Assembly: GCF_900105625.1 (NCBI RefSeq)
Contig: NZ_FNSD01000001.1
Location: 1,736,001 to 1,800,000 of the forward strand
DNA: 64,000 nucleotides
Direction of reading: 5' to 3'
Source: Terriglobus roseus
Lineage (GTDB): Bacteria; Acidobacteriota; Terriglobia; Terriglobales; Acidobacteriaceae
Positions 4,563 through 63,721 of the stretch are shown in pieces. The position numbers and the translations under genes were made by a program. The notes beneath the pieces were generated by a model that searched no databases, was not told the origin of the DNA, and worked only from the letters and a program-made list of their open reading frames with translations. Within the stretch, counting starts at the first letter, position 1. The number at the start of each line of letters is the position of its first letter.

Positions 4563-4680
4563 CGGGCGCCCCATCCTTTCGCGGCTTCGTCGCGAAAGGG
4601 TGGGATATCGCGCAGAGCGCCAACCTCTGCGCACCTGAGTAGGCCACCCCATCCTTTGGAAGAGGACGGGGCACCCGGTG
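4563..4680. repeat. Composite palindromic repeat, copy 1 (degenerate)
   Basis: Left unit GGGCGCCCCATCC with stem CTTTCGCG / CGCGAAAG; middle inverted GCGCAGAG / CTCTGCGC; right unit CCACCCCATCCTTT ending GACGGGGCACCCGG. Same architecture as the copies at 20207 and 43311, with more divergence. Confidence 0.75.
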
Positions 4681-4697
4681 ATCTTCACAGCTCGCTG

Positions 4698-7337
4698 TTA
4701 TCGCGGGATGGTGATGGGCTGTGGCGGTGGCGATTGTGGGGTTGCGGGCTGGCTTGGTGTGGGCTGGATGTTGTTGTCTTCGTGCTTGCCCAGGCCGAAC
4801 ATCTTCTGGAAGATGTTGCGATGGGGTGTGCCGTCCGGGTTCAGATTGCCGCTACCGTTATTGCCATTGACGCCGCTGCTGTTCGTGCCGCTGCCGCCGC
4901 CAGTCATGTTGGTGCCTGCGGTGCTGCTGTCTGCGCCGAAGAGTGAGCCCATGATGCCGGTGCCGTCGCCCATATGGCTGCAGGTGTTGTGTGGCTGCGT
5001 GCCTTCCACGAAGGCTGCCGTGTAGTTGGCGATAGGGCAGGTTTCGTCTGCGAGCTGGCTGGTGGCCTTGTCGATGCGGTAGAGGCTGATGCCGTCCGGC
5101 GCAGGTGTGAAGGGCTTCATGTCGCTGTACTGCGGCAACTTAATGGCGCGCTTCATGAACTCAGCCCAGATGGGTGCGGCCGTATCGGCACCCTGCACCT
5201 TCTTGCTCAGGTTGTCGGAGATGTCCGTGTAGTCATCGTTCCCGATCCACACGATGCACAGCAGGTTGGACGAATAACCGGCAAACCACACGTCGTGCGA
5301 GGTACCGGTCTTGCCGGCAGCCGGGGCCGTAAAGCCAAGCGCACGGACGCCCGCCGCAGTGCCGCGCGTCATCACGCCTTCCATCATGGACTGCGTCAGG
5401 AAGGCCACTTTCGGGTCCAGGACCTGCCGCGCTTCCGGTGTGAAATCGGCTACGATGTCACCGCGATCATTGCGAACACTTGCCAGCAGCCACGGATTCA
5501 GATGCACGCCGCGGTTGGCAAAGACGGTGTAGACACCCGCCATATCCATGGGCGTTGCGCTGTACGTACCGATGGCAACGGACGGCGTGGGCCGCGCGGA
5601 AGTGATGCCGGCGGAACGCGCCATCGCAGCCACATTCTCGAATCCCACACGCTGTGCCAGCGAGATCGTTGCAATGTTGAGGGAATGCTCAAGCGCCACC
5701 TGGGCCGGCACCATGCCGGGATACTCGCCACGCTCAAAATTGCCGGGCGTGTACGACTTGCCGCCCGTGCTGAAATCCTGCGGATCGTCGTTCAGGGGCG
5801 TGACCGCAGTGAAGGGTCCGCTGTCACCCAGCGCCTGCCCCGCCACGCTCTGCGAGAAGGCGGTAGCGAAGACCAGCGGTTTGAAGATGGATCCCGTCGG
5901 CCGGCTGGAGACTGCATGGTTCAACTGCGACTGGCCGTAGTTGCGGCCACCCACCAGCGCAAGCACCTGGCCTGTATGCGGATCGAGGGCGACGAGGGAA
6001 ACCTGGGGATACTTGAGGGGTGTATCGCCCTGGTGGCGCTTGCGAATCATCTCGTCGATGCGCGGCATCATTGCCGCTACGGCATCGGCGGCGGCCTTCT
6101 GCAGATCAGGGTCGAGCGAGGTGTAGATGCGGAGGGGCGAACCGTTGTTCTGCTGGTCTCCCAGGCGCTGCTGCAGTTGGTCGTGCACCATGTCGACGAA
6201 GTAGGGTGCTTCGCTGGCGTCGACGTTCTGCGGCGCCAGCTTCAGCGGCTCGGCCTGCGCGCGTTCGGACTGTGCGGCAGTCAGAGAGCCGGTTTCCACC
6301 ATGGATCGCAGCACAAGGTTGCGGCGTTCCAGAACGCGTTCGGGATGGCGGAAGGGGTTGAAATAACTGGGGCGCTGAATGATGCCCGCGAGCAGGGCAC
6401 ACTCCGCCAGGTCAAGCTGCTTCAGGTCTTTTCCGAAGTACGCCTGTGATGCTTCCCCGAAACCATTGATCGCGAAAGAGCCACGCTGCCCAAGGGGAAT
6501 CTGGTTGGCGTACATCTCGAAGATCTGCGGTTTGCTGAAGCGCGACTCAAGCTGCAGGGTGATCATGATTTCGATCAGCTTGCGCTTGATGTGTTTCTCC
6601 GGGGAAAGGAAGAAGCCACGCGCCAACTGCTGCGTGAGCGTCGATCCGCCGCAGGAGAAGTGACGGCTCAAGGTATCTTCCACACCGCACTTCACCAGCC
6701 GGCCGAAGTTAAGGCCATTGTGCTCAAAGAAGCGGCGATCTTCAATCGCCGTGACGGCCTGCACCAGTCGCTGGGGAATCTGGTTGTAGGTCACCAGCCG
6801 GCGCTTGGTGCGGTTCTTACTCTCGCTCAGGCTGGTGATGAGCTGCGGCTCCAGCTCGTAGGCGCGCAGCGCGGCACCGTTGTCCGCGGCAATGTTTTGA
6901 ACGATACCGCCCGTTGCCGTGATGGTGGCGCCATCCGTGGAATGAAAGGAGCCGGGGCCGGGCTTGATGGTGATGGTGTCGCCCGAAAGCTGGTAGGTGC
7001 CAAGGTTCGAGTTGGCGTTATAGCCAGCCCGGCGCAGATCCTGTGCGATGGACTCCACCGTCAACGTCTGGCCGGTGCGCACCTCTTTCGGTGCGGCATA
7101 AATCTGTGCCGTGCTGGCGAAGAGAGGACCGTTGTTCATACGGTCATCCACCACTTTTTGGTAGTGGTTGTAGTAGTAGCCAAAGGTGATGGCGCCCACC
7201 AGCAGGCATGCCAGACCGACGACGACAAGGAACAGCAGGGCGCGCTGCCACAGCGGCCGATAGCCGCGGGGACGACGTGCTCGTGGGTCTTCGTCGTACC
7301 GCTTGCCGCCGTTGCCGAGCTTTACCTTGACCGCCAT
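4698..7337 (-). CDS. Class A penicillin-binding protein, bifunctional (PBP1A/1B type)
   Basis: Bifunctional peptidoglycan synthase. From the ATG at 7337, preceded by a good AGGAGG site, it has 879 aa: a cytoplasmic basic N-terminus, a membrane anchor (residues 33-53), a UvrB-domain-2-like segment (about 80-165), GT51 transglycosylase (about 175-345, catalytic E199 in AIEDRRFFEH and the GGSTLTQQLAR motif) and a transpeptidase domain with SxxK at S483 (TGSIFK), SxN at 552-554 (SLN) and KTG at 676-678. The last ~100 residues are a Gly/Asn/Ser-rich and then Pro/Gln-rich tail, unlike most PBPs. An open frame continues 44 codons upstream but lacks a supported start. All catalytic motifs are intact. 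It lies just downstream of proS on the same strand with a gap of about 100 bp. Confidence 0.95.
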   Translation of the reverse strand: MAVKVKLGNGGKRYDEDPRARRPRGYRPLWQRALLFLVVVGLACLLVGAITFGYYYNHYQKVVDDRMNNGPLFASTAQIYAAPKEVRTGQTLTVESIAQDLRRAGYNANSNLGTYQLSGDTITIKPGPGSFHSTDGATITATGGIVQNIAADNGAALRAYELEPQLITSLSESKNRTKRRLVTYNQIPQRLVQAVTAIEDRRFFEHNGLNFGRLVKCGVEDTLSRHFSCGGSTLTQQLARGFFLSPEKHIKRKLIEIMITLQLESRFSKPQIFEMYANQIPLGQRGSFAINGFGEASQAYFGKDLKQLDLAECALLAGIIQRPSYFNPFRHPERVLERRNLVLRSMVETGSLTAAQSERAQAEPLKLAPQNVDASEAPYFVDMVHDQLQQRLGDQQNNGSPLRIYTSLDPDLQKAAADAVAAMMPRIDEMIRKRHQGDTPLKYPQVSLVALDPHTGQVLALVGGRNYGQSQLNHAVSSRPTGSIFKPLVFATAFSQSVAGQALGDSGPFTAVTPLNDDPQDFSTGGKSYTPGNFERGEYPGMVPAQVALEHSLNIATISLAQRVGFENVAAMARSAGITSARPTPSVAIGTYSATPMDMAGVYTVFANRGVHLNPWLLASVRNDRGDIVADFTPEARQVLDPKVAFLTQSMMEGVMTRGTAAGVRALGFTAPAAGKTGTSHDVWFAGYSSNLLCIVWIGNDDYTDISDNLSKKVQGADTAAPIWAEFMKRAIKLPQYSDMKPFTPAPDGISLYRIDKATSQLADETCPIANYTAAFVEGTQPHNTCSHMGDGTGIMGSLFGADSSTAGTNMTGGGSGTNSSGVNGNNGSGNLNPDGTPHRNIFQKMFGLGKHEDNNIQPTPSQPATPQSPPPQPITIPR

Positions 7338-7437
7338 CGTCCTCCTACGTGTCTCCGGCCGATGGGCGACCGGAAGCGTCACAGGGCCCGTAGACTCCGC
7401 CCACTCCCGATCGCACCACGCCGCACGACTTGAAACA

Positions 7438-20206: not shown

Positions 20207-20367
20207 CCGGGTGCCCCATTCTTTCGCGGCTTCTTCGCGAAAGGGTGGGCTGTCGCGCGTCGCGCGACCAACGATGTCACATCGAGTCGTGGGCCGCTAT
20301 GAGCTGGACGGTTCGAGCGTTGCTCGAATACCCCACCCTTTGCTAGCGCAAAGAATGGGGCACCCGG
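20207..20367. repeat. Composite palindromic repeat, copy 2 (between ispD and ispF)
   Basis: Left unit CGGGTGCCCCATT with stem CTTTCGCG / CGCGAAAG and GGTGGG; inner inverted stems GTCGCGC/GCGCGAC and TTCGAGC/GCTCGAA; right unit ATACCCCACCCTTTGC with stem CTTTGC / GCAAAG and ATGGGGCACCCGG. The best preserved full-length copy in the window. Confidence 0.85.
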
Positions 20368-23917: not shown

Positions 23918-24017
23918 CGGGTGCCCCATTCATGACGGCTTCATCGTCATGAGTGGGACCCACCGATAGTCGACCGCGGATCCCACTCATGCAAAGAGCG
24001 TATGAATGGGGCACCCG
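23918..24017. repeat. Composite palindromic repeat, copy 3 (between convergent genes)
   Basis: Left unit CGGGTGCCCCATTCATGACG, loop, CGTCATGAGTGGGA; right unit TCCCACTCATGC ... GTATGAATGGGGCACCCG. The left stem TCATGACG/CGTCATGA differs from the copy at 61169 (TCATGACA/TGTCATGA) by a compensatory pair change. Confidence 0.85.
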
Positions 24018-26278: not shown

Positions 26279-26838
26279 TGCCTGCGCAGACGACAAAGGG
26301 GGTGCCCCATGTCTCGCATCTGAGACATGGGTTCTCGATGCTCGGCATAGCGATTGGCCTGACGGGCTGCGGCTACCATACGGCCGGCGCCGCGGCCCAC
26401 GTGCCCGCGAATGTCCGCACCATGGCCATCCCCGTCTTTAAGACAAACGTGCAGCAGTTCCACACGGAGGTCGCGCTGACAGACGCGACCATCCGCGAGA
26501 TGAACACACGCACGCGTTATCGCGTCATACACTCTGACGATACGGACGCGAGCGATGCCATGCTGACCGGCACTGTGCTGACGGAGAATATCGCACCGCT
26601 GACCTACGATCCCAGCACGGGCTCGACCTCGTCGTACCTGGTGCAGATCACCGCGAAGATTGTGCTGACTGCCCGTGATGGACGTGTGCTGTACCGCAAT
26701 GACAGGCTGAGCTTTCGCGAGCAATACCAGTCGACGCAGGACCTGAGCGCGTTCATCCAGGAAGACGGCGCGGCGGTGCAGAGACTGTCAAAGGACCTGG
26801 CCAGCGAGATCGTCGCGGACGTCCTGAATAGTTTTTGA
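26278..26838 (+). CDS. lptE: LptE-like LPS-assembly lipoprotein; signal region contains a palindromic repeat
   Basis: Predicted outer-membrane lipoprotein that plugs the LptD barrel. The lipobox LTGC followed by GYHTAG, then MAIPVFKTNVQQF and a C-terminal domain ending DLASEIVADVL agree with LptE, and the next gene is holA, its usual neighbour. The start ATG at 26278 overlaps the gltX stop (TAATG). Residues 8-21 (GVPHVSHLRHGFSM) are encoded by a copy of the dispersed palindromic element (26300-26339). A start at the ATG at 26338 would leave only ten residues and no positive charge before the lipobox Cys, so the element appears to supply the signal-peptide n-region. GTG 26302 is a third option. 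Confidence 0.8.
   Translation: MPAQTTKGVPHVSHLRHGFSMLGIAIGLTGCGYHTAGAAAHVPANVRTMAIPVFKTNVQQFHTEVALTDATIREMNTRTRYRVIHSDDTDASDAMLTGTVLTENIAPLTYDPSTGSTSSYLVQITAKIVLTARDGRVLYRNDRLSFREQYQSTQDLSAFIQEDGAAVQRLSKDLASEIVADVLNSF
26300..26339 (+). repeat. Palindromic element inside the lptE-like coding sequence
   Basis: GGGTGCCCCATGTCTCGC, loop, GAGACATGGGTTCTCGAT. It differs at only three positions over about 39 from the reverse complement of the intergenic copy at 61350-61387. Two of those changes are a compensatory C-G to T-A pair within the stem (CACGTCTC/GAGACGTG becomes CATGTCTC/GAGACATG). Confidence 0.85.
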
Positions 26839-28744: not shown

Positions 28745-29650
28745 CTAGCAGCTCATGCGTGTGCGCCGGATGGGTGTGTCTCTTCCCTTCACTGCTTCGC
28801 CTTCTCCCACCCACGGCTGACACTCCGGGCACCAGTAGGTGCTGCGTGCGCCGGGGCCCTGTTTGCGGTATTCGATGATGCCTCCGCAGCGACGGCATTC
28901 TTTGCCGCGACGCCCGTAGACCCACAGACGCTCCTCGCGATTGGCGGAGTGGGTAGTGCGTCGATTGCCGCTGTAGGTGATGATGCCGTCGCCACTGCCG
29001 TCGAGCACGTTGGCCTTCATGTAGCGCTGGGAGACATCGGCCATCTGCCGCATCTCGTCCGTGGAGATGGTGCTCATGTGCCGGAAGGGATGGACGCGCG
29101 CGGCGAAGGCGACCTCGCTCTTGTACACATTGCCGAGGCCGGCGATTACGCGCTGGTTGAGCAGGACGTTCGCGATCTCATCGTCAGGGTGTGAGGCGGC
29201 ACGTGCGCGGAGAGCTTCGTAACCCACGTCCGCGGTGTAGGAGTCGGAGAGAATGTCCGGCCCGAGCTTCGGCACGCTGCTCTTGCGTGCGAGCGATGCT
29301 GCCGTGTGGAACTCCGCGACGGGTACGTTGAAGGCGACGGCCTGCCAGCCATCGACTTCAATCAGAGCGCGCATGGCTTTGCGTGGTGACCACCACTTTT
29401 CGCCCGTCTTGTAGATGTGCCATGAGCCGCTCATGAGCATGTGGGTGACGAGGATCAGATCGCCCGAGAAGTGCATCAGGAGCCACTTACCGTTGGCTTC
29501 GACCTTCTCGATGATGCGGCCTGCTACGGGGCGGTCGTCGTTGACGGTTGCGAGGTGCGCGTAGCCTGTGTCGAATTTTGTGACGTGCTTGCCTGTTAGC
29601 ACCTTTGCGAGTGCGCGGGCAGAGCGATAGATGGTGTCTCCCTCAGGCAT
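28745..29650 (-). CDS. nei: Fpg/Nei family DNA glycosylase
   Basis: Base-excision repair enzyme with DNA glycosylase and AP-lyase activity. The N-terminus MPEGDT gives the catalytic Pro2-Glu3; the H2TH helix region is VLLNQRVIAGLGNVYKSEV and the C-terminal zinc finger is CRRCGG with CPEC. Length 301 aa from the ATG at 29650, slightly longer than E. coli Nei. The first 8 bp overlap the 3' end of the lhr helicase gene, so the two are translationally coupled. MPEGDT rather than MPELPE at the start favours Nei over Fpg. Confidence 0.92.
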   Translation of the reverse strand: MPEGDTIYRSARALAKVLTGKHVTKFDTGYAHLATVNDDRPVAGRIIEKVEANGKWLLMHFSGDLILVTHMLMSGSWHIYKTGEKWWSPRKAMRALIEVDGWQAVAFNVPVAEFHTAASLARKSSVPKLGPDILSDSYTADVGYEALRARAASHPDDEIANVLLNQRVIAGLGNVYKSEVAFAARVHPFRHMSTISTDEMRQMADVSQRYMKANVLDGSGDGIITYSGNRRTTHSANREERLWVYGRRGKECRRCGGIIEYRKQGPGARSTYWCPECQPWVGEGEAVKGRDTPIRRTRMSC

Positions 29651-32600
29651 TGCCCACCGTACGGCCGCCGCTGAACGCGCCCGGCGAAGCGCTCGGCAGC
29701 GTCGGGAGATTTCGTCGTAGATTGAAGCCCATGGGCGCCGCCTGGAAGCCTGCATCGAGGAGCACGCGGGCCATGGGGTGTTCGGCGACGTTGGTGCCGT
29801 TGATGGTCTGGATGAGCATGCCCACGCCGCCGCGGCCTTCTGCGTCTTCATTGAAGCGGCCCTGCGTCTGCGCGATGATCACGAAGTAGCGTGCGAGCGA
29901 GCGCATGACCTGGCCGCGCTGTGGCTCTTCTTCGGGCAGGAAGACCTGGATGTTCGGGTTGCCCCGACGGAGGTAGGTGACGAGTGCGCCATCGGCAAGG
30001 ATGACGCGGGAGCCTACCGTGCGTGTGAGCGAGCCGCCGTCTGCGGGCTGCGGCCACTTGAGCAACGCTCCATAAGGGCTCGCCGGATCGGTGGCGGCGA
30101 GTACGACCATCTCAGGATCGGTGTCGGGCCGCTTGCTGCGAAGCGAGCGCAAAAGATCCAGCGCAGCGGGTAAGGCGAACTGCGTTGCGCCGAGCTCCGC
30201 GGCGAAGTAGCCGCGACGGATTTTGCCGGACTCTTCCAGCGCCTTCATGACGTCGTAGATGGCGGAGAAGCCGCCGGGCAGGTTCTCTGCGTGTGCGGTC
30301 TCGCGGAAGACTACGCCGTAGCGCTGGAGGAGTTGATGAGCCTCCGCGTAGGACCACTCCGTTCCGTTTCGTTCTGACATGGTCATCGACGGATGCAAGG
30401 CCCAGCGGCCCTGTGCGGTGGGTGGCGTGGTGCGGCGGCTGCGAAAGTTGGCGCTCTGGTTGTGGATGCGGCGTGCGGGCTTCTGCGAACCACTTCGGCC
30501 GGTGCTGTTGCGGTCGGTGTAGGCGCGCAGCGACTGCAACGAATCGTTGGTGATGGCTCCGCGCCAGACTAAGTTCCATAGGGCTTCAAGCGATTCGCCC
30601 GGGTAACCTGCACCGGTGCCGTCGTGCAGGTTCTGAAAGAACGATGCACCGTGCGAGCGGAGGTACTCGATGATCTTGTCTTGGCGCTCACGGGTTGCGC
30701 TGCCCTCTTCGATGACGGCTGCGGCCTGCTGCGTGTTGACGACGGGCCATAGGAGCGGCAGCTTCTCTGCAAGGTAGAGGCCGATGCGGCCGTCGCGTTC
30801 GCCGATGGGTTCGAAGCCGGCCCAGGTGACTTCGCCAGCCGCGATCAGCATGTCGAGATCGGCAGGCTTGTAGTTGGCGATGCGTGCTGGCAGGATCTCT
30901 GTTTCGAGCAAGGACGCGGGCAGCGGTGCGCCTTGCAGCGTCTCGATGGTGTCGAGCAAGGCATCGAGGCCTCGACGGGGTGTGAGGACGCCCTGCCAGT
31001 GTGTGAAGAGGCGCGCGAGTGTCTGCTGCTCGACCGGCTCTACCTCTTTGCGCAGCTTGGCTAACGATCTACGGCGGATGGTGCGCAGCACTTCTACGTC
31101 GCACCACTCGCGTTGTTGACCGCCGGGACGGAATGCCCCTTCGATGATGCGACCGATGCCGACGAGCTTCTGCAGGACGGACTCGGCCGTCTCTAGCGGG
31201 ATGGCGAAGCGCGCGCTTACTTCATGCGTGGTGAACGGCCCGTGCGTGCGACCGAAGCGGCGGACGATGTCCACGATGGCTTCGGGTATCGCTTGCAGGA
31301 ATGCGGTTGGCAAGCCCGGCGGCAGCGGAATACCGAGTGCGTCGCGATAGCGCGCCGCATCTTCTACGGCGAGGAAGCGCTTCTCGCCACCGATCTTCAA
31401 CTCGAGTACCCGGCGTGCCTTTTGCAGGCGATCTACGGTGATCGCCACCTCCGGTGACGTCACGCGCTTGAGCAGCTCGGGTTTCGTCAGATCACCAAGG
31501 CGCAGCAGCATGTCGTGCACGCCGTCCATGTTGCGTGCGCGGTAGTCGTCGGCGAGCATCTGGAGCTGCTCTTCGGTCTCCTCGATGGCATTGGCATCAA
31601 GCAGTTCGCGAAGATCTGCGTCACCCAGCAGCTCGCGCAGTTGTTCCTGGTCGATACTGAGCGCCTGGGCGCGGCGCTCGGCGAGTGGGGCGTCACCATC
31701 GTAGATGTAATTCGCCACATAGCTGAACAACAGCGCCGATGCGAAGGGCGATGGTGTGCGCGAATCCACGGTGTGAATGCGGATCTGACGCTGCTGAATG
31801 CTACGCAGGATCTCGGACAGTGCGGGCATGTCGAAGACGTCGCGCAGGCACTCGCGATAAGCCTCAAGCAGCATGGGGAATTCGGGGTAGCGCGCGGCGA
31901 CACCCAGCAGGTCATAAGCCCGCTTGCGCTGCTGCCACAGCGGTGTGCGACCGTCTGCGCGACGTCGTGGCAGGAGTAGTGCGCGTGCGGCGGCCTCACG
32001 GAACTTCGCAGCGAAAAGGGCCGTCGAGCCGAGCTGGCGTTGCACAAAGTCGTTCGCTTCCTGCGCTTCGGGGAAGAACTGGTCAACGTCAGGTGCGTCG
32101 TCTGTCTCCGGGAAGCGGACGACGAAGCCGTCCTCGCTCCACATGGTCTCGACGTCGCTGCCGCCTGCGGCGCGGATGCGGCCCTGTACCGCCATGGCCC
32201 ACGGTGCATGCACTCGTGATCCGAAGGGCGTCATGATGCAGACGCGCCAGTCGCCCAACTCGTCGCGCACGCGTTCGACGACGATCGTACGGTCGTCTGG
32301 TACCTGCTCCGTTGCGATCTCCTGATCGGCGAGGTAGCGCATGACGTTCTCTGCGGCCTGCTGATCGAGATCGTGCTCGCGTGTGAGCCTTGTAAGGGCC
32401 GCGCCGCGCGGCATATCGCGTAGCTCGCGGATGAGTGCGCCGATGCGGCGGCCAAACTCCAGCGGGCGGCCTGCCTGGTCGCCGTGCCAGAAGGGCATCT
32501 TACCGGGCTCGCCGGGTGCGGGCGAGACGAGAACGCGGTCGTGCGTGATCTCGTCGATGCGCCAGGTGCTGGCGCCGAGGATGAAGGTCTCGCCTGTGCG

Positions 32601-34667
32601 TGCTTCGAAGACCATCTCTTCGTCGAGTTCGCCGACGCGAATGGGCTTATTGCGTTCACCGCTGAGGAAGACGCCGTAGAGGCCGCGGTCGGGAATGGTG
32701 CCGCCGTTCAGGATGGCGATCTTCTTCACGCCCTGGCGCGGTGTGATCCATTGCTTGGTGCGGTCCCAGGTGATGCGTGGGCGCAGTTCTCCAAACTCGT
32801 CCGAGGGATAGCGGCCGGCGAGCATGTCGAGCACGCCATCGAAGACCTGCACGCTGATGCCGGCGTAGCCTGCGCAGGAACGGACGATGCTGAGCAACGC
32901 GTCGTAGCTGAGGCCGGGCGCTTCGTCCTCATCGCTGCGGAACTTTGCACTGCGTCGGACTGCTTCTGCGGGAGGCAGTGGCGGATGCGCGATGATGGCG
33001 ACCATCTGCTGTGCGAGCACATCGAGCGCATTGCGCAGGAAGCGTGTGCTCTCCACGTGGCCTTCATGCATGGCGCGTGTGACGGCGGCGCAAGCGATGA
33101 GGTCTGCGCGGTACTTGGGGAAGATGATGCCCTTGGACGGCGCGCCCACCTGGTGGCCCGCACGGCCGATACGCTGCATGCCGCTGGCGACGGAGGGCGG
33201 CGCTTCGATCTGGATGACGAGATCGACGGCGCCCATGTCGATGCCGAGTTCGAGCGACGACGTCGCGACGAGTGCGCGGATGTTGCCGGCCTTTAGCAAC
33301 TCTTCAATCTCGCTGCGTTGCGAAGCAGCGAGAGAGCCGTGATGGGCGCGGGCGATCTGCTGACCGGCGAGTTCGTTGATGGCGCCTGCAAGCCTCTCCG
33401 CAATGCGCCGTGCGTTGACGAAGAGGATGGTCGACTGGTGCTGCAGAATGATCTCCAGCAGGCGTGGATGAATGCTCTGCCAGATGCTGGTGCGCTTGGG
33501 GCCCTGCGACGCGGGGCCGCTGGGCGTCTCCTGGATCTCACCAAGCTTGGCCATGTCTTCGACGGGGACTTCGACGGTGAGTTCCAGACGCTTCCGTGCG
33601 CCCGCGTTGACGATGGTGACGGGGCGGAAACGGATACCTGCGGTTTCGCCGCCGATGATGTTCGCCTTGGCCGGTGCGTCTTCGCCGAGGGCGAGGGCTG
33701 CTTCCCCTGCTTGTTCGGCCTTGGACTCTGCGGACGTGGAATCCAACGTCTCGGAAGCCAGACGTGGGGAACCCGCCTTTGTGGCCGGTGCGCTGAGAGC
33801 CTGTGTACCTTCTGCGCCGCCGAGGAATCTTGCGACTTCTTCGAGGGGGCGTTGCGTTGCAGAGAGACCGATGCGCTGGATCTTGTGTCCGGCGAGGGCT
33901 TCGAGGCGCTCCAGCGACAAGGCCATGTGTGCGCCGCGCTTGGTTGGAACGAGTGCATGGATCTCGTCGATGATGACGGTCTCGACAGTACGGAGAGCTT
34001 CGCCGGCGTTCGAGGTCAACAGGAGGTAGAGCGACTCCGGCGTGGTGATGAGGATGTCACCAGGGTGCTTCGCGAAGCGTGCGCGTTCGGCCGTAGGCGT
34101 GTCTCCGGTACGAACACTGATGTCGGGACTGTGCACCGGGACGCCCATGCGCTGCGCCATGTTCGCGATGCCCTGCAGGGGCGAGCGGAGGTTCCGCTCC
34201 ACGTCGACGGCAAGCGCCTTCAAGGGCGAGATGTAAACCACACGCACACCCACGCCGGTCGGCAGGATGCTCTCAGGTGGCGCGGACTTCTTTGTGCGGC
34301 GCTTTGGCTTTTCGACAGCCGTGGCAAGAGGACGATCACTGTGCAGCATCAGGCGGTCGAGACACCAGAGAAATGCGGTGAGCGTCTTGCCCGTGCCGGT
34401 CGGAGCGAGGATCAGCGTGCTGTCGCCGCGGGCGATGGCGGGCCACCCCTCACGCTGTGGCTGTGTTGGGCCTTCGAAGACGGCGCGGAACCATTCTGCT
34501 GTAACCGGGTGAAAGAGGTCGAGAACCGCATCGCCACCAGCAATGGTGACTGTTGGATCGACCAACTCGACGCTTGCCATGACTTCAGCCGTCCCAGGTA
34601 TTGAGGCAGCAGCCTCCGTCGCTTTGGCGGCTTTCTTCGGTTTCGTGGATGGGGTCTTTACGGGCAT
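29643..34667 (-). CDS. lhr: Lhr-family ATP-dependent DNA helicase
   Basis: Superfamily 2 3'-5' helicase (1674 aa) implicated in DNA repair in bacteria and archaea. RecA-like domain 1 has Walker A APTGTGKT (near residue 90) and DEIH; domain 2 has TSSLELGIDMG and QRIGRAGHQ. These are followed by the winged-helix and long C-terminal domains of the full-length Lhr form (E. coli Lhr is about 1540 aa). Between the helicase lobes lies a poorly conserved linker (about residues 285-345), which contains an in-frame palindromic element. A Lys/Ala-rich N-terminal ~50 residues precede the core. Pairing with nei fits a repair role. Confidence 0.94.
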   Translation of the reverse strand: MPVKTPSTKPKKAAKATEAAASIPGTAEVMASVELVDPTVTIAGGDAVLDLFHPVTAEWFRAVFEGPTQPQREGWPAIARGDSTLILAPTGTGKTLTAFLWCLDRLMLHSDRPLATAVEKPKRRTKKSAPPESILPTGVGVRVVYISPLKALAVDVERNLRSPLQGIANMAQRMGVPVHSPDISVRTGDTPTAERARFAKHPGDILITTPESLYLLLTSNAGEALRTVETVIIDEIHALVPTKRGAHMALSLERLEALAGHKIQRIGLSATQRPLEEVARFLGGAEGTQALSAPATKAGSPRLASETLDSTSAESKAEQAGEAALALGEDAPAKANIIGGETAGIRFRPVTIVNAGARKRLELTVEVPVEDMAKLGEIQETPSGPASQGPKRTSIWQSIHPRLLEIILQHQSTILFVNARRIAERLAGAINELAGQQIARAHHGSLAASQRSEIEELLKAGNIRALVATSSLELGIDMGAVDLVIQIEAPPSVASGMQRIGRAGHQVGAPSKGIIFPKYRADLIACAAVTRAMHEGHVESTRFLRNALDVLAQQMVAIIAHPPLPPAEAVRRSAKFRSDEDEAPGLSYDALLSIVRSCAGYAGISVQVFDGVLDMLAGRYPSDEFGELRPRITWDRTKQWITPRQGVKKIAILNGGTIPDRGLYGVFLSGERNKPIRVGELDEEMVFEARTGETFILGASTWRIDEITHDRVLVSPAPGEPGKMPFWHGDQAGRPLEFGRRIGALIRELRDMPRGAALTRLTREHDLDQQAAENVMRYLADQEIATEQVPDDRTIVVERVRDELGDWRVCIMTPFGSRVHAPWAMAVQGRIRAAGGSDVETMWSEDGFVVRFPETDDAPDVDQFFPEAQEANDFVQRQLGSTALFAAKFREAAARALLLPRRRADGRTPLWQQRKRAYDLLGVAARYPEFPMLLEAYRECLRDVFDMPALSEILRSIQQRQIRIHTVDSRTPSPFASALLFSYVANYIYDGDAPLAERRAQALSIDQEQLRELLGDADLRELLDANAIEETEEQLQMLADDYRARNMDGVHDMLLRLGDLTKPELLKRVTSPEVAITVDRLQKARRVLELKIGGEKRFLAVEDAARYRDALGIPLPPGLPTAFLQAIPEAIVDIVRRFGRTHGPFTTHEVSARFAIPLETAESVLQKLVGIGRIIEGAFRPGGQQREWCDVEVLRTIRRRSLAKLRKEVEPVEQQTLARLFTHWQGVLTPRRGLDALLDTIETLQGAPLPASLLETEILPARIANYKPADLDMLIAAGEVTWAGFEPIGERDGRIGLYLAEKLPLLWPVVNTQQAAAVIEEGSATRERQDKIIEYLRSHGASFFQNLHDGTGAGYPGESLEALWNLVWRGAITNDSLQSLRAYTDRNSTGRSGSQKPARRIHNQSANFRSRRTTPPTAQGRWALHPSMTMSERNGTEWSYAEAHQLLQRYGVVFRETAHAENLPGGFSAIYDVMKALEESGKIRRGYFAAELGATQFALPAALDLLRSLRSKRPDTDPEMVVLAATDPASPYGALLKWPQPADGGSLTRTVGSRVILADGALVTYLRRGNPNIQVFLPEEEPQRGQVMRSLARYFVIIAQTQGRFNEDAEGRGGVGMLIQTINGTNVAEHPMARVLLDAGFQAAPMGFNLRRNLPTLPSASPGAFSGGRTVGNA
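33738..33775 (-). repeat. Palindromic element inside lhr
   Basis: On the minus strand: CGGGTTCCCCACGTCTGGC, TTC, CGAGACGTTGGATTCC. About 32 of 37 positions match the intergenic copy at 61350-61387. It encodes the GSPRLASETLDS part of the linker between the two helicase lobes (residues ~297-310); the stem is partly broken, suggesting an older insertion. Confidence 0.75.
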
Positions 34668-36614: not shown

Positions 36615-36649
36615 CCCACCCTTTGCTTCGCAAAGAATGGGGCACTCGG
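36615..36649. repeat. Single palindromic repeat unit between convergent deoA and glycosyltransferase
   Basis: CCCACCCTTTGC, TTC, GCAAAGAATGGGGCACTCGG: right-hand unit of the composite family alone, with stem CTTTGC/GCAAAG. Confidence 0.8.
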
Positions 36650-43310: not shown

Positions 43311-43435
43311 CGGGTACCCCATTCTTTCGCGGCTTATCGCAAAAATCGCAGGGTTCACACGGACTCGGATCACTTGGAAGGGTCGCGCTAACGCGCGATA
43401 CCCCACCCTTTGCTTCGCAAAGAGTGGGGCACCCG
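43311..43435. repeat. Composite palindromic repeat, copy between methyltransferase and pgm
   Basis: Left unit CGGGTACCCCATTCTTTCGCG (left stem partly decayed), inner inverted TCGCGC/GCGCGA, then ATACCCCACCCTTTGC, TTC, GCAAAGAGTGGGGCACCCG. Lies between convergent genes. Confidence 0.8.
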
Positions 43436-52722: not shown

Positions 52723-55347
52723 TTACTCCGGACGGCGGCGAGGTGCGCCACCGAACGAAGGCTTTCCACCGAAGGAAGGCTTGCGTGGGCCGGAGGACGG
52801 GCGTCCGCCAAACGACGGACGGCCGCCGCCTTCACGTGGAGTGAACGGCTTGCGGTCGCCAAACGATGGACGGCTACCACCTTCACGAGGCGTAAATGGA
52901 CGGCGCTCGCCACCTTCGCGCGGTGTAAACGGCTTGCGATCTCCGAAGGACGGACGCGCGCCAAAGCTGGGACGGCTACCACCCTCACGTGGGGTGAACG
53001 GTCGGCTGCCACCTTCACGAGGAGTGAAGGGCCGACGCTCGCCACCCTCGCGAGGTGTGAACGGCTTGCGATCACCGAAGGACGGACGACCATCACCGCG
53101 CGGCGTGAACGGACGGCTACCGCCCTCACGGGGCGTGAACGGACGACGCTCACCATCGCCACGCGGCGTGAACGGACGGTCTCCACGAGGAGCAAAGGGC
53201 TTGCGATCGCCAAAGGACGGACGGCTACCACCTTCGCGCGGCGTAAACGGACGGCGCTCGCCATCCCCACGCGGGGTGAAGGGACGATCACCGCCCTCGC
53301 GGGGAGTAAATGGGCGGCGCTCGCCGCCTTCGCGAGGCGTAAACGGCTTCCGATCACCAAACGAAGGACGCGCACCGAAGCTCGGACGGCTGCCACCTTC
53401 ACGCGGCGTGAATGGACGACGCTCACCACCTTCGCGAGGAGTGAACGGACGGCGCTCGCCACCTTCGCGCGGGGTGAACGGCTTGCGTTCACCGAACGAA
53501 GGACGCGCACCGAAGCTCGGACGGCTACCACCTTCACGAGGCGTGAACGGACGACGCTCACCACCCTCGCGGGGAGTAAACGGACGGCGCTCGCCACCCT
53601 CACGCGGGGCGAACGGCTTGCGGTCACCAAACGAAGGACGTGCGCCGAAGCTGGGACGGCTACCGCCTTCACGAGGAGTGAACGGGCGACGCTCACCACC
53701 TTCACGAGGCGTAAATGGACGACGCTCTGCGCCGCCTTCGCGGGGCGCGAACGGCTTGCGATCCTGATCCCACGGCCGCGCAAACTCGTTGCGCTGACTG
53801 TCGGATGGGCCGGCTGCATTGTCAGGACGCGTGAAGGGGCGGCGCTCGCGATCACCGCCGGCGGCGAAGCCGCCGGTGCGGCGCTGCGGTGCGAAACCAC
53901 CCTCACGACGCGGAGCAAAACCACCCTCGCGGCGGGGTCCACCAAAGCCACCTTCGCGACGCGGTGCCGGACGGTCGCCTGCAGCGGCGGGACGGCGAAC
54001 CGGATAGCTACCCGTGCGTGCGGGACGACGTTCTTCCGGTGCTCCGCCCTCCGCTGCGAAGCGCGCAGCACGCTCTTCGATCATGTGGCGGCGATCATCA
54101 TCCTCGTAGCGCGAGCGCGGCGCGGCCGTGAAGGCCGGTGCGGCGGTTGCATCTGCGGGAAGCTCATCGAGTGCGCCGGGGATGTACAGCAGTGTCTTGC
54201 CATTCAGAACGGTGGACTCGAGCTGGCGCGACGCAGCCAGGCCGCTTACGACCTCGCGAACGCGCGAACGTGCTGCCAGCGGCGAGAGGAAGATTTCCAT
54301 CTCATCGCTGGTTGCGGCGACTGCCTGCGACAGGTACAGCGACAGCAGTGCGGAGAGAGCCGTGGGCTGTCCCGCGTTGGCGCCTGCCTTGAGGTGACGC
54401 ACGAAGCGGCCGCTCATCAGCTCCCACTTGGAGGGTGCACCGTCAGCATCGGGAACGGGGATGACGCGCTGAATCGCCCAGAGCTCGCTGAGAGCGCGGA
54501 GGACGGCAGAGTCATTCACACCCTGCCCAAGCTCGTTGGAGAGTTCGTGGGGAGCAAGCGCACCCTTCTCCTTCAGAGCTTCATAGACCTTTACTGCCAG
54601 TGGAGAAACGCGCATGGATCCGGTCTGTGCCGGCTCCTGCTTCCAGTTCTTGTCACCACGCAGCGTGTAGACAAACGAAAACGCCTGCGAAGAGCAGACA
54701 AAGTCAGGCTCGCCCGTGGTCGATCCCAACAGGTTCAACGGCACGGCCGAACCTTCGGCGATCATGCGTGCCAGCATGTGGCTGACCGTCTCCTTCTCCT
54801 CAGCGGAGAAACCATTGATGGGATCTGCCTCCGACTCAGGCTCGACGGCTTCGACATTGTTAGGTGTTGGGTTGCCCTCGGCGTCGATCAGGTCCTGCTC
54901 GGCGATCTCGTCGCCCTCATCCTCGGCGATCTCATCGTCGGTGGTCAGCATGACTTCAGGGTCAGCAGCTTCGGGGCTCCAGCCCTTCGACTCCTCGTCT
55001 TCACCTTCCTCGTCATCACCTTCGGACTCTTCGTCGTCTTCTTCGTCTTCGAAGTCCTCATCGGACTCCTCATCTTCTACGGCGAGGGCGTAGGACTCTT
55101 CCTCGCTGGGACTGCCGGTCGTCTTCGGAACCCAACCGTTTTCGGGACGGCCAAGGATGGCCTCGGCAAAGCTGGGCTGAGGCGATGCGGCGAACTGTGC
55201 GTGCGGGTAATAGGGCACAAGGCCCGCAGCATCAAGCCACGTGCGGGCGTCGTCCATGGTGCGCAGGGCGTCGCCGTTCTGATGCCAGAGGGCAATGCGC
55301 GCAAGCTTGAGTTGGTTGGGGGTAATGCTGTCTGGCATGGATGCCAT
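52723..55347 (-). CDS. Protein with acidic region, winged-helix-like core and Arg/Gly/Phe repeat tail
   Basis: 874 aa from the ATG at 55347 (AAGGAC upstream). Four parts: a short helical N-terminus (1-60, TPNQLKLARIALW), an extremely acidic segment (about 81-155, mostly Asp/Glu/Ser), a folded region (about 185-390) whose helices (VKVYEALKEKGALAPHELSN, ALSALLSLYLSQAV) suggest tandem winged-helix modules, possibly of the AlkZ/YcaQ type, and a ~440-residue tail built of RRPFTPREGG and RPSFGARPSFGDRKPF repeats (about nineteen PREGG units) rich in Arg, Gly, Phe. RGG-like tails bind RNA and can drive condensation; such a role is an inference. No close family recognised. The frame to 55548 lacks a likely start. 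Confidence 0.7.
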   Translation of the reverse strand: MASMPDSITPNQLKLARIALWHQNGDALRTMDDARTWLDAAGLVPYYPHAQFAASPQPSFAEAILGRPENGWVPKTTGSPSEEESYALAVEDEESDEDFEDEEDDEESEGDDEEGEDEESKGWSPEAADPEVMLTTDDEIAEDEGDEIAEQDLIDAEGNPTPNNVEAVEPESEADPINGFSAEEKETVSHMLARMIAEGSAVPLNLLGSTTGEPDFVCSSQAFSFVYTLRGDKNWKQEPAQTGSMRVSPLAVKVYEALKEKGALAPHELSNELGQGVNDSAVLRALSELWAIQRVIPVPDADGAPSKWELMSGRFVRHLKAGANAGQPTALSALLSLYLSQAVAATSDEMEIFLSPLAARSRVREVVSGLAASRQLESTVLNGKTLLYIPGALDELPADATAAPAFTAAPRSRYEDDDRRHMIEERAARFAAEGGAPEERRPARTGSYPVRRPAAAGDRPAPRREGGFGGPRREGGFAPRREGGFAPQRRTGGFAAGGDRERRPFTRPDNAAGPSDSQRNEFARPWDQDRKPFAPREGGAERRPFTPREGGERRPFTPREGGSRPSFGARPSFGDRKPFAPREGGERRPFTPREGGERRPFTPREGGSRPSFGARPSFGERKPFTPREGGERRPFTPREGGERRPFTPREGGSRPSFGARPSFGDRKPFTPREGGERRPFTPREGGDRPFTPRGDGERRPFTPREGGSRPSFGDRKPFAPRGDRPFTPRGDGERRPFTPREGGSRPFTPRGDGRPSFGDRKPFTPREGGERRPFTPREGGSRPFTPREGGSRPSFGARPSFGDRKPFTPREGGERRPFTPREGGSRPSFGDRKPFTPREGGGRPSFGGRPSSGPRKPSFGGKPSFGGAPRRRPE
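52760..53780. repeat. Coding minisatellite of PREGG-type units
   Basis: DNA tandem repeat of about 30-bp units (reading ACGGCGCTCGCCACCTTCG and variants on the plus strand) with a higher-order ~150-bp period made of three to five units. It encodes the tail of the minus-strand protein and keeps frame throughout. Confidence 0.8.
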
Positions 55348-55703
55348 GGGGTAGTCCTTCTTTCGGCGCTGCCGTCGCTCAAAGGGCGCGGCGCGGTTCG
55401 TATGCGCAAGGCCAGCAAAAATACGCGGAGACGACCCGCGCTGCTGCCTGCGTGCTGTGTTGGATGTAGGCCAGAGTGCCGCCGCTACCGCCGGAGAGCA
55501 ACTCTTTTTTCGGAGCATCTGGGATGCTCGTACCTGCGACCAATGCATGGATGGGTGCGGTGACTACCCGGCCGCAAGCAAACATTGTGTCGACTTAGGA
55601 AGCGTGTCGTCCGCTTCGTTCTAGAGGAACCGCATGGTTCTTAGAAGAACGCCCGGGCTGCGCTAGGTGCGTGCGCCGATGACGTGCCAGGCTGCCCCCA
55701 AAA
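55348..55703. other. Intergenic gap between mutL stop and the repeat-protein start
   Basis: 356 bp. No gene, tRNA or repeat-family copy recognised. It should hold the promoter for the minus-strand repeat protein. Confidence 0.5.
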
Positions 55704-57800
55704 TTAAATACGCTGGAAGGCGCGCTGGATCTCCTTATGAGAATACCGCAAAGCGATGGGTCTGCCGTGCGGACATGCCATAGGATTTTCAGTTTTTCCG
55801 AGCTCATCGAGCAGCCACTGCATCTTGCTGGTCTCCAGCGGCATGTTGATCTTGACCGCAGCATGGCAGGCAATGGACGCCGCAATGCGCCGCGCGCGAG
55901 TTTCCATGTTGTCTGCCTGGGCCGCATCATCGTCTGTTTGCAACAGTTCCGCGAGCGCCAGCTCCAGTTCCTTACCCTCAAGACCGACTGGCGCAGACTT
56001 CACCGCGAGCGTCCGAGGCCCGAAGGGCTCTGCTTCAAAGCCGTTGCGGTTCAGTTCCTCGGCCATGCCGGCGAAGTTGGCCATCTGTGCGGGGACAAGG
56101 TCGATCAGCAGCGGCATCAGCAACCGCTGGCGCTGCACGCGCTCTACCTGCCGCTCGCGCAGCACCTTCTCAAACAGGATGCGCTCGTGGGCAACGTGTT
56201 GATCGATGATCCAGAGTCCTTCTTCGTTGACCGCAAGGATGAAGGAGTTCTGCACCTGGCCAAGTGGGCGCAGACCACCGAGTCCGGCCAGGTTCGCGGT
56301 GTCTTCAATACGCTCCGCTGCAGGCACGCGTGCCGGAGTGCCTGCGGGCAGATGCGTCCCGGCGTGCGCATCCGGTAAGTCACCACAAGGCGTGAGTGCG
56401 ATACCAGCACCACCAACACCCTGGGTGCCCCATTCACGCGCAGCCTCATCACGCGTAAGTGGGATCTCACCAAAACTAAGTCGGCCCGGCAGCGGCGTGA
56501 GGGGTTTCACGGTAAGTGAGAACCCGTCAACATCGCTCGCATCAATGAGACCGATGCTGCGGTCCAGGGCCCGTCGCTCGTCAGCCTCCGAAGCTTCACG
56601 AATCTGATGTTCGCTCCAGGGTGCATCACTGCCCGGCCCCGGACCACGCACGACCGGATCAAGCTCGATGCTCTCCTGCCCATCGAGCAGACCGATCCGC
56701 GGCGACGGTGCGAGTGCGCTAAGAAAGCTGGCAGCGGGACGTGCTTTGAGGACCGTGTTGCGGACGGTGTCTCGGACGAAGTCATGCACGAAGCTCGATT
56801 GCCGGAAGCGCACTTCGGTCTTGGCAGGATGCACGTTCACATCGACTTCGGCTGCGGGCATCTCCAGAAACAGGAGCACCACCGGGAAGGATGTGGGTGG
56901 CAGGATGTTCTTGTAGGCCTCGGTGAGTGCGTGCAGGATGAGACGGTCGCGCACCTGCCGACCGTTCACGAACACATAGATCGATCCGCGATTGAGTTTC
57001 TGTAACTCAGGCTTGGAGACAAAGCCTCGCACACGGAGATAGCCGGGCTCCGGGGCGACATAATCTTCTTCGCGACGCCACGGTGGCGGTTCGGGAAGAC
57101 CGGCTCTCGTGAAGTCCATCTCTGCGGCGCAAGGCAGCATATCGCGCGAAATATCACTGCCGAGGATCTGATAAAGCCGCTCGCTTGCATCCCGCACCGC
57201 AGGCGCGATCAACAACGCGTGCGTCGCAGAATGTAACTCAAAGTGCTTCCCAGGATGCGCAAGCGCATAGTGCGTAACTAATGCGGCGACGTGCGATAAC
57301 TCTGTCGGCTCGGACTTCAGGAACTTCTTGCGTGCAGGCACGTTGAAGAAGAGGTCCTTGATGGCGATTGTGGTACCGACCGGCACGCCAACATCTTCCA
57401 CCTTCGTCATCTTGCCGCCATGGATTTCGATGCGCGTGCCGACTGCGTCCTCTTCGGAGCGTGTGTCTAACTCCACGCGAGCGACCGATGCGATGGATGG
57501 CAGTGCCTCGCCACGGAAGCCGAGCGTTGCGATGTGCAGCAGGTCCTCCGCGGACCGCAGCTTGCTGGTAGCGTGCCGTTCGAATGCGAGCATCGCATCG
57601 TCGCGCACCATGCCGTGGCCGTTGTCGACGATGCGGATCAGCTTGCGGCCGCCGCCTTCAACCTCGATGCGGATGCGCGTCGCGCCCGCGTCCACTGCGT
57701 TTTCCAGCAGTTCTTTCACAACGGACGCAGGCCGTTCCACCACTTCGCCCGCGGCGATCTGGTTCGCCACCTGGTCGGAGAGTACGCGGATACGGCCCAT
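55704..57800 (-). CDS. mutL: DNA mismatch repair protein MutL (endonuclease type)
   Basis: 698 aa. The GHKL ATPase half has ANQIAAGEVVERPASVVKEL, DNGHGM, ATLGFRGEAL; the C-terminal half keeps the endonuclease metal motif as DQHVAHERILFE, SIACHAAVKI and CPHGRP, so it should nick DNA like MutL of bacteria lacking MutH. Between them lies a variable linker (about 360-505), and residues ~444-461 (GEIPLTRDEAAREWGTQG) are encoded by a copy of the dispersed palindrome. ATG at 57800. Confidence 0.95.
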   Translation of the reverse strand: MGRIRVLSDQVANQIAAGEVVERPASVVKELLENAVDAGATRIRIEVEGGGRKLIRIVDNGHGMVRDDAMLAFERHATSKLRSAEDLLHIATLGFRGEALPSIASVARVELDTRSEEDAVGTRIEIHGGKMTKVEDVGVPVGTTIAIKDLFFNVPARKKFLKSEPTELSHVAALVTHYALAHPGKHFELHSATHALLIAPAVRDASERLYQILGSDISRDMLPCAAEMDFTRAGLPEPPPWRREEDYVAPEPGYLRVRGFVSKPELQKLNRGSIYVFVNGRQVRDRLILHALTEAYKNILPPTSFPVVLLFLEMPAAEVDVNVHPAKTEVRFRQSSFVHDFVRDTVRNTVLKARPAASFLSALAPSPRIGLLDGQESIELDPVVRGPGPGSDAPWSEHQIREASEADERRALDRSIGLIDASDVDGFSLTVKPLTPLPGRLSFGEIPLTRDEAAREWGTQGVGGAGIALTPCGDLPDAHAGTHLPAGTPARVPAAERIEDTANLAGLGGLRPLGQVQNSFILAVNEEGLWIIDQHVAHERILFEKVLRERQVERVQRQRLLMPLLIDLVPAQMANFAGMAEELNRNGFEAEPFGPRTLAVKSAPVGLEGKELELALAELLQTDDDAAQADNMETRARRIAASIACHAAVKINMPLETSKMQWLLDELGKTENPMACPHGRPIALRYSHKEIQRAFQRI
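56423..56471. repeat. Palindromic element inside mutL linker
   Basis: Plus strand: GGGTGCCCCATTCACGCG, loop, CACGCGTAAGTGGGATCTC. Same frame of conserved bases as the intergenic copy at 23918-23965 (GGGTGCCCCATTCATGACG ... CGTCATGAGTGGGA), but a different stem (ACGCG/CGCGT instead of TCATGACG/CGTCATGA). Confidence 0.8.
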
Positions 57801-57915: not shown

Positions 57916-58911
<996 letters not shown>

Positions 58912-58929: not shown

Positions 58930-58957
58930 GAAGGGCCGCGCATCCTCGCGGCCCTTC
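58930..58957. terminator. Terminator between aldo/keto reductase and RidA gene
   Basis: GAAGGGCCGCG, CATCCT, CGCGGCCCTTC: perfect 11-bp stem followed by TTCGTTGCTT, between converging stops. Confidence 0.8.
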
Positions 58958-58975
58958 TTCGTTGCTTATATCTGG

Positions 58976-59443: not shown

Positions 59444-59501
59444 TTTCTGCCCCTTTTCGACCGTCTTTGAATCGATTCAGTTTGGCTCATCCTACACGGC
59501 G

Positions 59502-61037: not shown

Positions 61038-61070
61038 GGCGCGGCAAGTATAGCTGCCGGATCGAACTCG

Positions 61071-61140
61071 GAGAGAAAATCCCTCAGCAGCAGAAGCCGC
61101 AATTTGTTGGCTGGTTGAGGGCATGGCTGAAGCCATGCCC
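61071..61140. repeat. GAGAGAAAATCCCTCAGC element, copy 1
   Basis: About 70 bp starting GAGAGAAAATCCCTCAGC and ending GGCTGAAGCCATGCCC (with stem GGCATGGCTGAAGCCATGCC). A clearly homologous copy is at 63442-63512, also directly followed by palindrome-family units. Confidence 0.8.
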
Positions 61141-61168
61141 ATCCGAAAGGGTTCGCGCTGGGCGGGAA

Positions 61169-61387
61169 AGCCCACTCATGACAATATTGCTGTCATGAAT
61201 GGGGCACCCGAGTGGCGGTTGTCCTTTGGGTTGTCTGATGTCTTGTGGGGAAGAAGTGTCGCGCTTTCGCGCGATACCCCACCCTTTCCCTTCGGAAATG
61301 AACGGGGCACCCGGGTGGGTGGTCGTCCCGGAGGTTTGTGAGGTAGATCGAGAACCCACGTCTCAGAAGCGAGACGTGGGGCACCCG
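61169..61387. repeat. Three palindromic repeat units with three different stems
   Basis: Unit a (61169-61210): CCCACTCATGACA...TGTCATGAATGGGGCACCCG. Unit b (61256-61313): TCGCGC/GCGCGA, then ACCCCACCCTTTCC...GGAAATGAACGGGGCACCCG. Unit c (61350-61387): ACCCACGTCTC, AGAAGC, GAGACGTGGGGCACCCG. The last one is the sister of the copies within lptE and lhr. Confidence 0.85.
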
Positions 61388-61443
61388 AGTGAAGGATTGG
61401 CGAGAAACTGCTCCCTAAGCCCTGTTGCCTGTTCCCTGCTGCT

Positions 61444-62136: not shown

Positions 62137-62272
62137 AGGTGATCTCCAGGGAACGGCAGATTATGACGCTGTGGAGTGATAGACGGACAGGGTGCTGGAA
62201 GGCCGCAAGAATTCTTTTGCGAACCGGAATTCCCGATCGAGTTTTCCTTTGGGCCTGGGCTGGCACGCAAAA

Positions 62273-62313
62273 ACCCCCTCACGACGGTGAAGCTGTCATG
62301 AGTGGGGCACCCG
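62273..62313. repeat. Palindromic repeat unit between YceI and amidohydrolase genes
   Basis: CCCCCTCACGACGG, TGAAGC, TGTCATGAGTGGGGCACCCGG; TCATGA-type stem, slightly mismatched. Confidence 0.75.
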
Positions 62314-62327
62314 GTGCGCTGCAGGTG

Positions 62328-63314: not shown

Positions 63315-63441
63315 TGTCGGTCCTCTTGGCGTTGTTGTTCTGAGGGGTTACGGGTTTTGCTTTGCGATAGTTCCGGGGCTTATTGGGACGGTTATTTGAA
63401 GGTCAGGTCACGTTGGCGGCTCGCGCTTTGCGGTACCTAGA

Positions 63442-63512
63442 GAGAGAAAATCCCTCAGCGGCTGAAGCCGTTCCTCTATGGGCTGATTGATGGCATGACT
63501 GAAGCCATGCCC
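63442..63512. repeat. GAGAGAAAATCCCTCAGC element, copy 2
   Basis: Homologous to 61071-61140: shared start GAGAGAAAATCCCTCAGC, GAAGCCG in the middle and CTGAAGCCATGCCC at the end, with differences in between. Confidence 0.8.
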
Positions 63513-63541
63513 CCTCCGAAAAAGTTTGCGCTTTCGCGCGA

Positions 63542-63721
63542 GTCCCACTCATGAGGATGAAGCTGTCATGAATGGGGAGTAGGTTAGGCCATCCCGTTTA
63601 CAAGTGCGGATCAAACGGAGCTCTAGATCTCGTAGTGGAGACGGGGCACCCAGTTCTTGCCTCCCTTGGTCATGTACCAAATGAAAACCCACGTCTCAGA
63701 GGCGAGACGTGGGCCACCCGG
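63542..63721. repeat. Two palindromic repeat units
   Basis: Unit at 63542-63578: TCCCACTCATGAGG...TGTCATGAATGGGG. Unit at 63685-63721: AACCCACGTCTCAGAGGCGA then GACGTGGGCCACCCGG. The order matches the two outer units of the 61169-61387 array. Confidence 0.8.

Follow-up and report, generated by a model that had tools for sequence, protein, structure and literature searches.

What are the short palindromes scattered through a 64,000-nucleotide window of the Terriglobus roseus genome (contig 1, positions 1,736,001-1,800,000; whole genome 4,809,171 bases), and how did stems of such different sequence come to stand on one constant flank? The hairpins are, with a probability of about 0.92, REP-like non-autonomous substrates of group I RAYTs, where REP stands for repetitive extragenic palindrome and RAYT for REP-associated tyrosine (HUH) transposase. 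Throughout the text, the window is the whole stretch of DNA that was analysed.

A dispersed family of hairpins with a constant head

The unit of the family is formed by the head GGGTGCCCC(A/G), a variable stem, a loop, and TGGG(G). The CCCC(A/G) of the head already belongs to the foot of the stem, in which CCCA pairs with TGGG. A second hairpin of the CGCGCAAAGCGCG type follows 23 of the 77 exact heads of the genome within 70 nt, compared with 4 upstream, and some units are extended by a third hairpin (CATGGCTTCAGCCATG) and a fourth (GGCTTCAGCCGCTGAGGGA). An inverted head follows no more than 310 nt downstream of 20 of the 77.

With at most one mismatch, the head string GGGTGCCCCA occurs 21 times in the window, compared with a mean of 5.83 in 100 shuffles (standard deviation 2.34, maximum 11), and ATACCCCACCC occurs four times, compared with 0.38 expected. 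Exact copies of GGGTGCCCCA across the genome number 77, against 5 for a reversed-pattern control. Of these 77 heads, 61 have a hairpin that scores no lower than the 99% level of shuffled sequences, and the remaining 16 fall below it. The same level is reached by 75 of 109 distinct heads with at most one mismatch, a set that comprises the fetched loci and the window and is not a genome-wide tally of inexact heads. The covariance model recognizes 13 units above 30 bits within the window; ten of these were rows from which the model was built, and three, at 56423, 23982, and 61278, are independent. A separate scoring of no more than 110 candidates per genome gave lower bounds, with at least 75 in the genome of the window. 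The dispersed hairpin family proposed in the initial annotation, whose quoted stems are present in the window, is thus confirmed, and its copies are far more than a handful.

The copies are mostly extragenic, with 2 of 64 units examined positioned in a coding frame according to home-made gene calls. Across 61 genomes, most members of the genus and several members of the family are enriched in GGGTGCCCCA, whereas most of those examined from the order and class have it at about the frequency of the control. At the gathering score, no Rfam family matched the window.

The stems retain pairing while their sequence changes, as had been claimed from the window. The pairing alignment contains 50 of 51 listed units, out of 75 good ones (hairpin score of at least 20; 48 distinct rows). 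In it, 95.6% of the cells pair, a percentage that is biased upward because the rows were selected for hairpin score. Eight of the 12 stem pairs vary on both sides, and the covariation score of these selected rows is 0.561, compared with 0.191 ± 0.016 in shuffled alignments and at most 0.278 in slid ones. Further pair types (21) are no more numerous than in shuffles, 370 of 500 of which gave an equally high number. The two strands of the stem are not equivalent: G.T wobbles outnumber A.C mismatches 61 to 2 in 121 units flanking RAYTs and 59 to 13 in 67 units of the window's own genome. The excess of wobbles indicates that folding takes place in the head strand, either in single-stranded DNA or in RNA.

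Heads bracket RAYT genes in related genomes

Some lower-scoring Y1 genes in relatives are bracketed by heads. Fifteen such genes were combined into the profile A1, with which genome contigs were scanned. The bracketing counts are based on the best 80 of at least 549 confirmed relatives, whose record titles carry what we take to be names of Acidobacteriota. The 80 loci were chosen irrespective of their flanks; several share a genome or come from genomes sampled earlier (L140 and L141 from G019, L147 from G032, and L153 from G024). Earlier sets of 40 and 16 loci had been hand-picked, some of them for heads seen nearby. Eleven of the 80 loci have no placed open reading frame (ORF), and 11 of the remaining 69 lack full flanks, which leaves 58 for counting.

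Heads in convergent orientation (at most one mismatch) are present upstream of 51 of the 58 genes, downstream of 55, and on both sides of 49. When downstream matches inside the ORF are dropped, the numbers are 48 downstream and 44 on both sides. When the longest inverted repeat of each locus was sought without reference to the head, it contained GTGCC[CG]C at 31 of these loci. By comparison, none of 12 placed loci of IS200-type Y1 genes has a head within 1 kb; about 19 further loci in that comparison had no motif-bearing ORF and were left unjudged. The initial annotation was right to suggest a search for a RAYT-type transposase.

The proteins encoded by these genes have the character of RAYTs. 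The signatures of RAYTs are the HUH motif, the catalytic tyrosine, an N-terminal threonine, and NP(L/V)(R/K)xG (PMC2817692). The columns T18, H61, H63, and Y134 are invariant in the 15 rows of A1 and correspond to the first three of these. The tyrosine motif of group I reads Y---NP, in which NP is invariant and is followed by V in 14 of the 15 rows, as judged by inspection of the alignment. Two group I proteins pass the NCBIfam model REP_Tyr_transpos (NF047646) with 102.7 and 100.5 bits at a cut-off of 80, and two reach 33.6 and 39.8 bits in the IS200-type model NF033573, below its cut-off of 55. The best match of the A1 profile among solved structures is TnpA-REP 4er8. In a tree of 113 sequences, into which no named GTRG RAYT was included, all 87 group I sequences are placed together with a support of 0.835, as are 12 of the 13 group II sequences. 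Fragmented or stop-containing group I matches, apparently decayed RAYTs of the genus, were observed at L234 (G001), L233 (G005), and L232 (G018).

Stems follow the lineage of the RAYT

Flanks were compared for 87 different RAYTs, of which 69 came from the scan and 18 were hand-picked; 65 of the 87 (57 and 8, respectively) have hairpin heads on both sides. In these 65, the 24 nt that follow the head agree with a median of 0.875 within a RAYT, compared with 0.4375 between RAYTs. The agreement within a RAYT lies above the 95% level of between-RAYT comparisons in 49 of the 65 and does not in the other 16. Protein identity and stem identity are correlated over 86 RAYTs (Mantel r 0.46; at most 0.123 in 2000 permutations), and the mean stem identity is 0.45-0.50 where the proteins are less than 60% identical. 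The head of the flank units (at most two mismatches) is nearly constant, with T4 in 151 of 151 units and G5 in 150 of 151.

Two stems were followed across the 61 genomes. Stem CAGGTCCC is present in five genomes, four of which (G002, G008, G012, and G026) also encode a RAYT bearing CAGGTCCC on at least one side. Stem CACGTCTCG, which belongs to the window, is present in 11 genomes and fits the RAYTs more loosely than CAGGTCCC. It is commonest in G011 (29 copies), where it is found on one side of a RAYT, and next in G007 (13 copies), where it is found on both sides of one.

Since the stems match across one RAYT and diverge together with its protein, the exchange of whole stems requires no templated change. 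The initial annotation had taken this exchange as a hint of recombination or templated change. The apparent swap of stems is mainly a mixture of repeats from different RAYT lineages under one head.

Gene context does not point to transcription termination

Several copies lie between converging genes, and it had been suggested that they might end transcription. Of 64 units, 59 are positioned between strong coding stretches, as determined from the home-made gene calls; the other five were left unclassed, three as weak and two because they are in frame. The neighbours are codirectional for 31 units, converging for 23, and diverging for 5, compared with 20, 8, and 7 for 35 gaps of the window. Neither the excess of converging neighbours (Fisher test) nor the deficit of diverging ones is significant, with a p of 0.12 each. 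At least five T within the 8 nt after the hairpin, the U-tract of a Rho-independent terminator, were found in just 6 of the 64 units. Intrinsic termination is thus unsupported as the origin of the family, and the suggestion is not borne out. The GTAG and CGTC REPs are described as favouring unidirectional and converging neighbours (PMC3733652).

The hairpins could instead be selected RNA elements, terminators or stabilisers of mRNA 3' ends, that were spread by other means. The one-strand bias of the wobbles is also expected of RNA, and the counts of converging and diverging neighbours lean in the same direction. Nevertheless, the scarcity of T-tracts and the insignificant bias in gene context speak against this explanation, which moreover accounts neither for the bracketing of RAYTs nor for stems matched to them; it appears improbable. 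A role in the host is possible for some copies and is not required.

Turnover of the elements in a sister genome

The sister genome G011 is syntenic across nearly the whole window. No head with at most one mismatch was found at the G011 sites that correspond to the elements at 4564, 20209, and 36615. At least one head is present at the sites of 23919, 43312, 62274, and 63544-63719: the counterpart of the 23919 element has one head, the right arm of the 43312 element is kept, and three heads occur where the window has the unit at 62274. The unit at 26300 is common to both genomes, and all ten of its pairs survive one double and three wobble changes, as judged by inspection.

The manner in which the 26300 unit changed bears on a second alternative, in which stems are altered without selection, through recombination or through quasi-palindrome correction, where one arm serves as the template for repair of the other. 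Changes of the stems are indeed symmetric, and fusions of modules do occur. However, such correction should erase wobbles, and the units of the window's genome contain 59, of which 53 are T.G at positions 11-12. By inspection, the orthologues at 26300 are separated by three wobble changes and one double change. The stems also track the lineage of the RAYT. This alternative is judged to be unlikely, slightly more so than that of selected RNA elements.

Repeats without a group I RAYT

A number of observations weigh against the hairpins being substrates of group I RAYTs. Searching with the A1 profile detected no group I RAYT in the genome of the window, and within the genus the density of heads is only loosely tied to the presence of the gene. 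The 98%-complete genome G017 holds 77 heads and no PF01797 match, and is thus a carrier without transposase. G015 has 163 heads and a best profile match of 87 bits, and its 16 copies of CAGGTCCC are not accompanied by a RAYT bearing that stem. Similarly, CACGTCTCG occurs without a matching RAYT in G000 and G016 (11 copies each), G004, and G010. Most of the genes that went into the profile had previously been observed beside heads, and hairpin heads are present on both sides of 8 of the 18 hand-picked RAYTs, compared with 57 of the 69 fetched ones. The orientation control is not zero, with heads in the wrong orientation at 9 and 7 of the 58 loci. The full motif NP(L/V)(R/K)xG was read in 6 of the 15 rows of A1, and the foot tetranucleotide GT(A/G)G is absent from the units that flank group I genes.

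The head density in the genus is higher in genomes with a group I RAYT (one-sided p 0.033; 9 genomes vs 10). The only A1 match in the genome of the window is L033 (C1:3218454-3218867), which scores 86.6 bits, compared with 190-256 bits for near-full-length group I genes. PF01797 is represented there by three genes, none of which has a head in the approximately 1.5 kb of flank examined. These genes were considered as a refutation of the link to RAYTs, and the idea was rejected: two of them appear by inspection to be of the IS200 type, and L033 has repeats of a second family. Because a group I RAYT is missing, the repeats of this genome are immobile now unless another enzyme acts on them. The gene may have been lost from the genome; in another reading, the repeats would have arrived otherwise. 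The many copies without a group I RAYT would also fit MITE-like remnants (miniature inverted-repeat transposable elements) of another transposon that lie around group I RAYTs by chance, which is very improbable in view of the two-sided, convergent, and stem-matched bracketing of RAYTs in many records, a statement made with no search for other transposases beside the repeats.

The second repeat family, GCTTTAGCCGCTGAGG with the foot GGCTTCAGCCGCTGAGG, flanks L033 in inverted orientation. With at most three mismatches, it brackets 4 of 14 group II-like loci (L033, L129, L136, and L114), is present on one side in matching orientation in 2, and is found at none of the other 8. The genome of the window contains 62 copies of it, compared with 3 for a control (at most two mismatches). 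Its foot (at most four mismatches) is positioned in one orientation no more than 310 nt downstream of 7 of the 77 heads, two of which share one foot. Within the same distance, it is not found upstream of any head in this orientation, and in the opposite orientation it occurs once downstream and once upstream. The heads and the feet downstream of them form chimeric elements. It is conceivable, though rather doubtful, that chimeric REPINs with a group I head and an GGCTTCAGCCGCTGAGG foot are mobile by means of the one RAYT that survives in this genome and is of another lineage, and that orphan group I repeats persist in this way.

Elements in the window

The elements are listed in Table 1. The heads at 9950, 60101, 62841, and 63642 are below the hairpin threshold and were excluded; those at 4667, 33765, and 43312 are below it too and were retained as degraded copies by their context. 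The initial annotation described full-length copies as composites of two units joined by a second stem. This holds for 20209-20365 and, in degraded form, for 43312-43434 and 4564-4676, but not for 23919-24016, in which the joint is missing.

Table 1. Repeat elements of the window, numbered from its first nucleotide
Position	Strand	Description
4564..4676	+	Inverted pair with degraded second arm; heads GGGCGCCCCA (+), GGGTGCCCCG (-)
20209..20365	+	Full inverted pair, stems TTTCGCG and TTTGC; second GC-rich hairpin after each
23919..24016	+	Inverted pair, stem TCATGACG / TCATACG; without ATACCCCACCC joint
26300..26331	+	Single unit, stem CATGTCTC
33743..33774	-	Degraded copy within Lhr-type helicase ORF (13.9 bits, E 0.21)
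36615..36647	-	Unit, stem TTTGC, with second hairpin; neighbouring ORFs converge
43312..43434	+	Inverted pair with degraded left arm and intact right arm (43402-43434, -); neighbouring ORFs converge
56423..56463	+	Exact-head unit in frame within mutL ORF
61171..61209	-	Chimeric: unit stem TCATGACA, further hairpins to ~61082, GGCTTCTGCTGCTGAGGGA foot
61278..61312	-	Unit followed by second hairpin CGCGCGAAAGCGCG
61355..61386	-	Unit, stem CACGTCTC (brackets RAYT in G007; on one side of RAYT in G011)
62274..62312	-	Degraded unit
63453..63577	-	Headless chimeric: unit stem 63544-63577, second and third hairpins, GGCTTCAGCCGCTGAGG foot at 63453
63688..63719	-	Unit, stem CACGTCTC, head GGGTGGCCCA

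The unit within the mutL ORF (55704-57800, minus strand) is positioned in the linker between the DNA_mis_repair and MutL_C domains. The MutL of G011 is 92% identical and has no head near the linker, which is very variable across the genus. In the helicase ORF (29643-34667, minus strand), the degraded unit lies between the DEAD and Helicase_C domains. The ORF at 52723-55548 (minus strand) aligns with G011 in many registers around 52.8-53.8 kb, indicating that it contains internal repeats.

Relation to known systems

The family resembles the REP/RAYT systems of E. coli, Pseudomonas, and Stenotrophomonas, in which short dispersed hairpins have a constant 5' head and form inverted doublets, the RAYT is located between two inverted copies, and the repeats diverge together with the RAYT (PMC2817692, PMC8266576, PMC3686654). 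It differs from them in its head GGGTGCCCC(A/G) and constant stem foot, which take the place of GTAG/GTGG, in its Acidobacteriota hosts, and in the very varied stems beneath one head. Because the GTRG head is absent, the repeats are not classed as canonical REPs, although most of the REP/RAYT features tested were found in them. The initial annotation recognised no named family; in the way they work, the repeats are like the named REP and REPIN elements.

RAYT-like genes of Acidobacteria bracketed by inverted repeats have been described as TIRYTs, forming TIRtrons. Those of T. saanensis, K. versatilis, A. capsulatum, and G. mallensis have inverted repeats unrelated to GTAG (PMC3733652). The repeats of TIRYTs are long terminal inverted repeats, some of which share GGGGWSAS, and by inspection neither GGGTGCCCC nor its complement fits this consensus. 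A dispersed family of heads with lineage-specific stems is not described in the text on TIRYTs, figures and supplements aside (PMC3733652). The TIRYT of T. saanensis, printed in 2013, may be a group I RAYT, namely that of the genus-mate G006. The latter is located at 465 kb; assuming even spacing of the 4,334 genes, it would be approximately gene 395, close to 'tsa 392'. It lies between two heads with the stem CATGTCCGGA, of which G006 contains four copies (at most one mismatch), and its open frame has 170 codons. Twenty of the 26 printed TIRYTs belong to subclass 2.1, which is longer and has a C-terminal helix-turn-helix (PMC6006769), and set against the 170-codon frame this makes the identity of the two genes unsure.

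Class 3 TnpA proteins of Acidobacteria are also RAYT-like and accompanied by atypical, abundant hairpins, with a CnGA foot and approximately 600 repeats in Solibacter. They differ in their Y----Q motif and CnGA foot, compared with Y---NP and another foot here (PMC6006769). Many short repeats have been noted in Solibacter, without a family name in the portion of the source consulted (PMC3174227). A literature search with the strings of the head returned no bacterial dispersed palindrome among the matches listed, as judged from titles and the starts of abstracts. Nor was a dispersed family with a constant head, lineage-bound stems, and chimeras found in the literature on RAYT, REP, and REPIN in Acidobacteria, on TIRYTs, and on palindromes of Terriglobus and Granulicella, insofar as it is covered by text outside figures, supplements, and subscription papers.

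Possible mechanism and implications

Binding and cleavage by the RAYT and mobility of the repeats are inferred from the features of the loci. A RAYT of group I would bind the head-bearing single strand in its folded form. Features common to group I RAYTs would read the constant head and the base of the stem, and features that differ among their lineages would read the upper stem. If the strand is then cleaved and rejoined at the head, copies may be scattered, some of them as inverted pairs, or REPINs. The repeats left behind by a RAYT lineage would have a stem of their own, so that a genome visited by several lineages would display one head and many stems. The genome of the window would be one that retained its repeats and has no group I RAYT.

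Many Acidobacteriota records contain RAYTs of a clade in which the head stays constant and the stems vary together with the protein, and in which recognition common to the clade would be separable from recognition specific to a lineage. The natural pairs of heads and stems would allow the specificity of the head to be compared with that of the stem by swapping parts, and the family provides cases of abundant repeats in genomes without a cognate RAYT.

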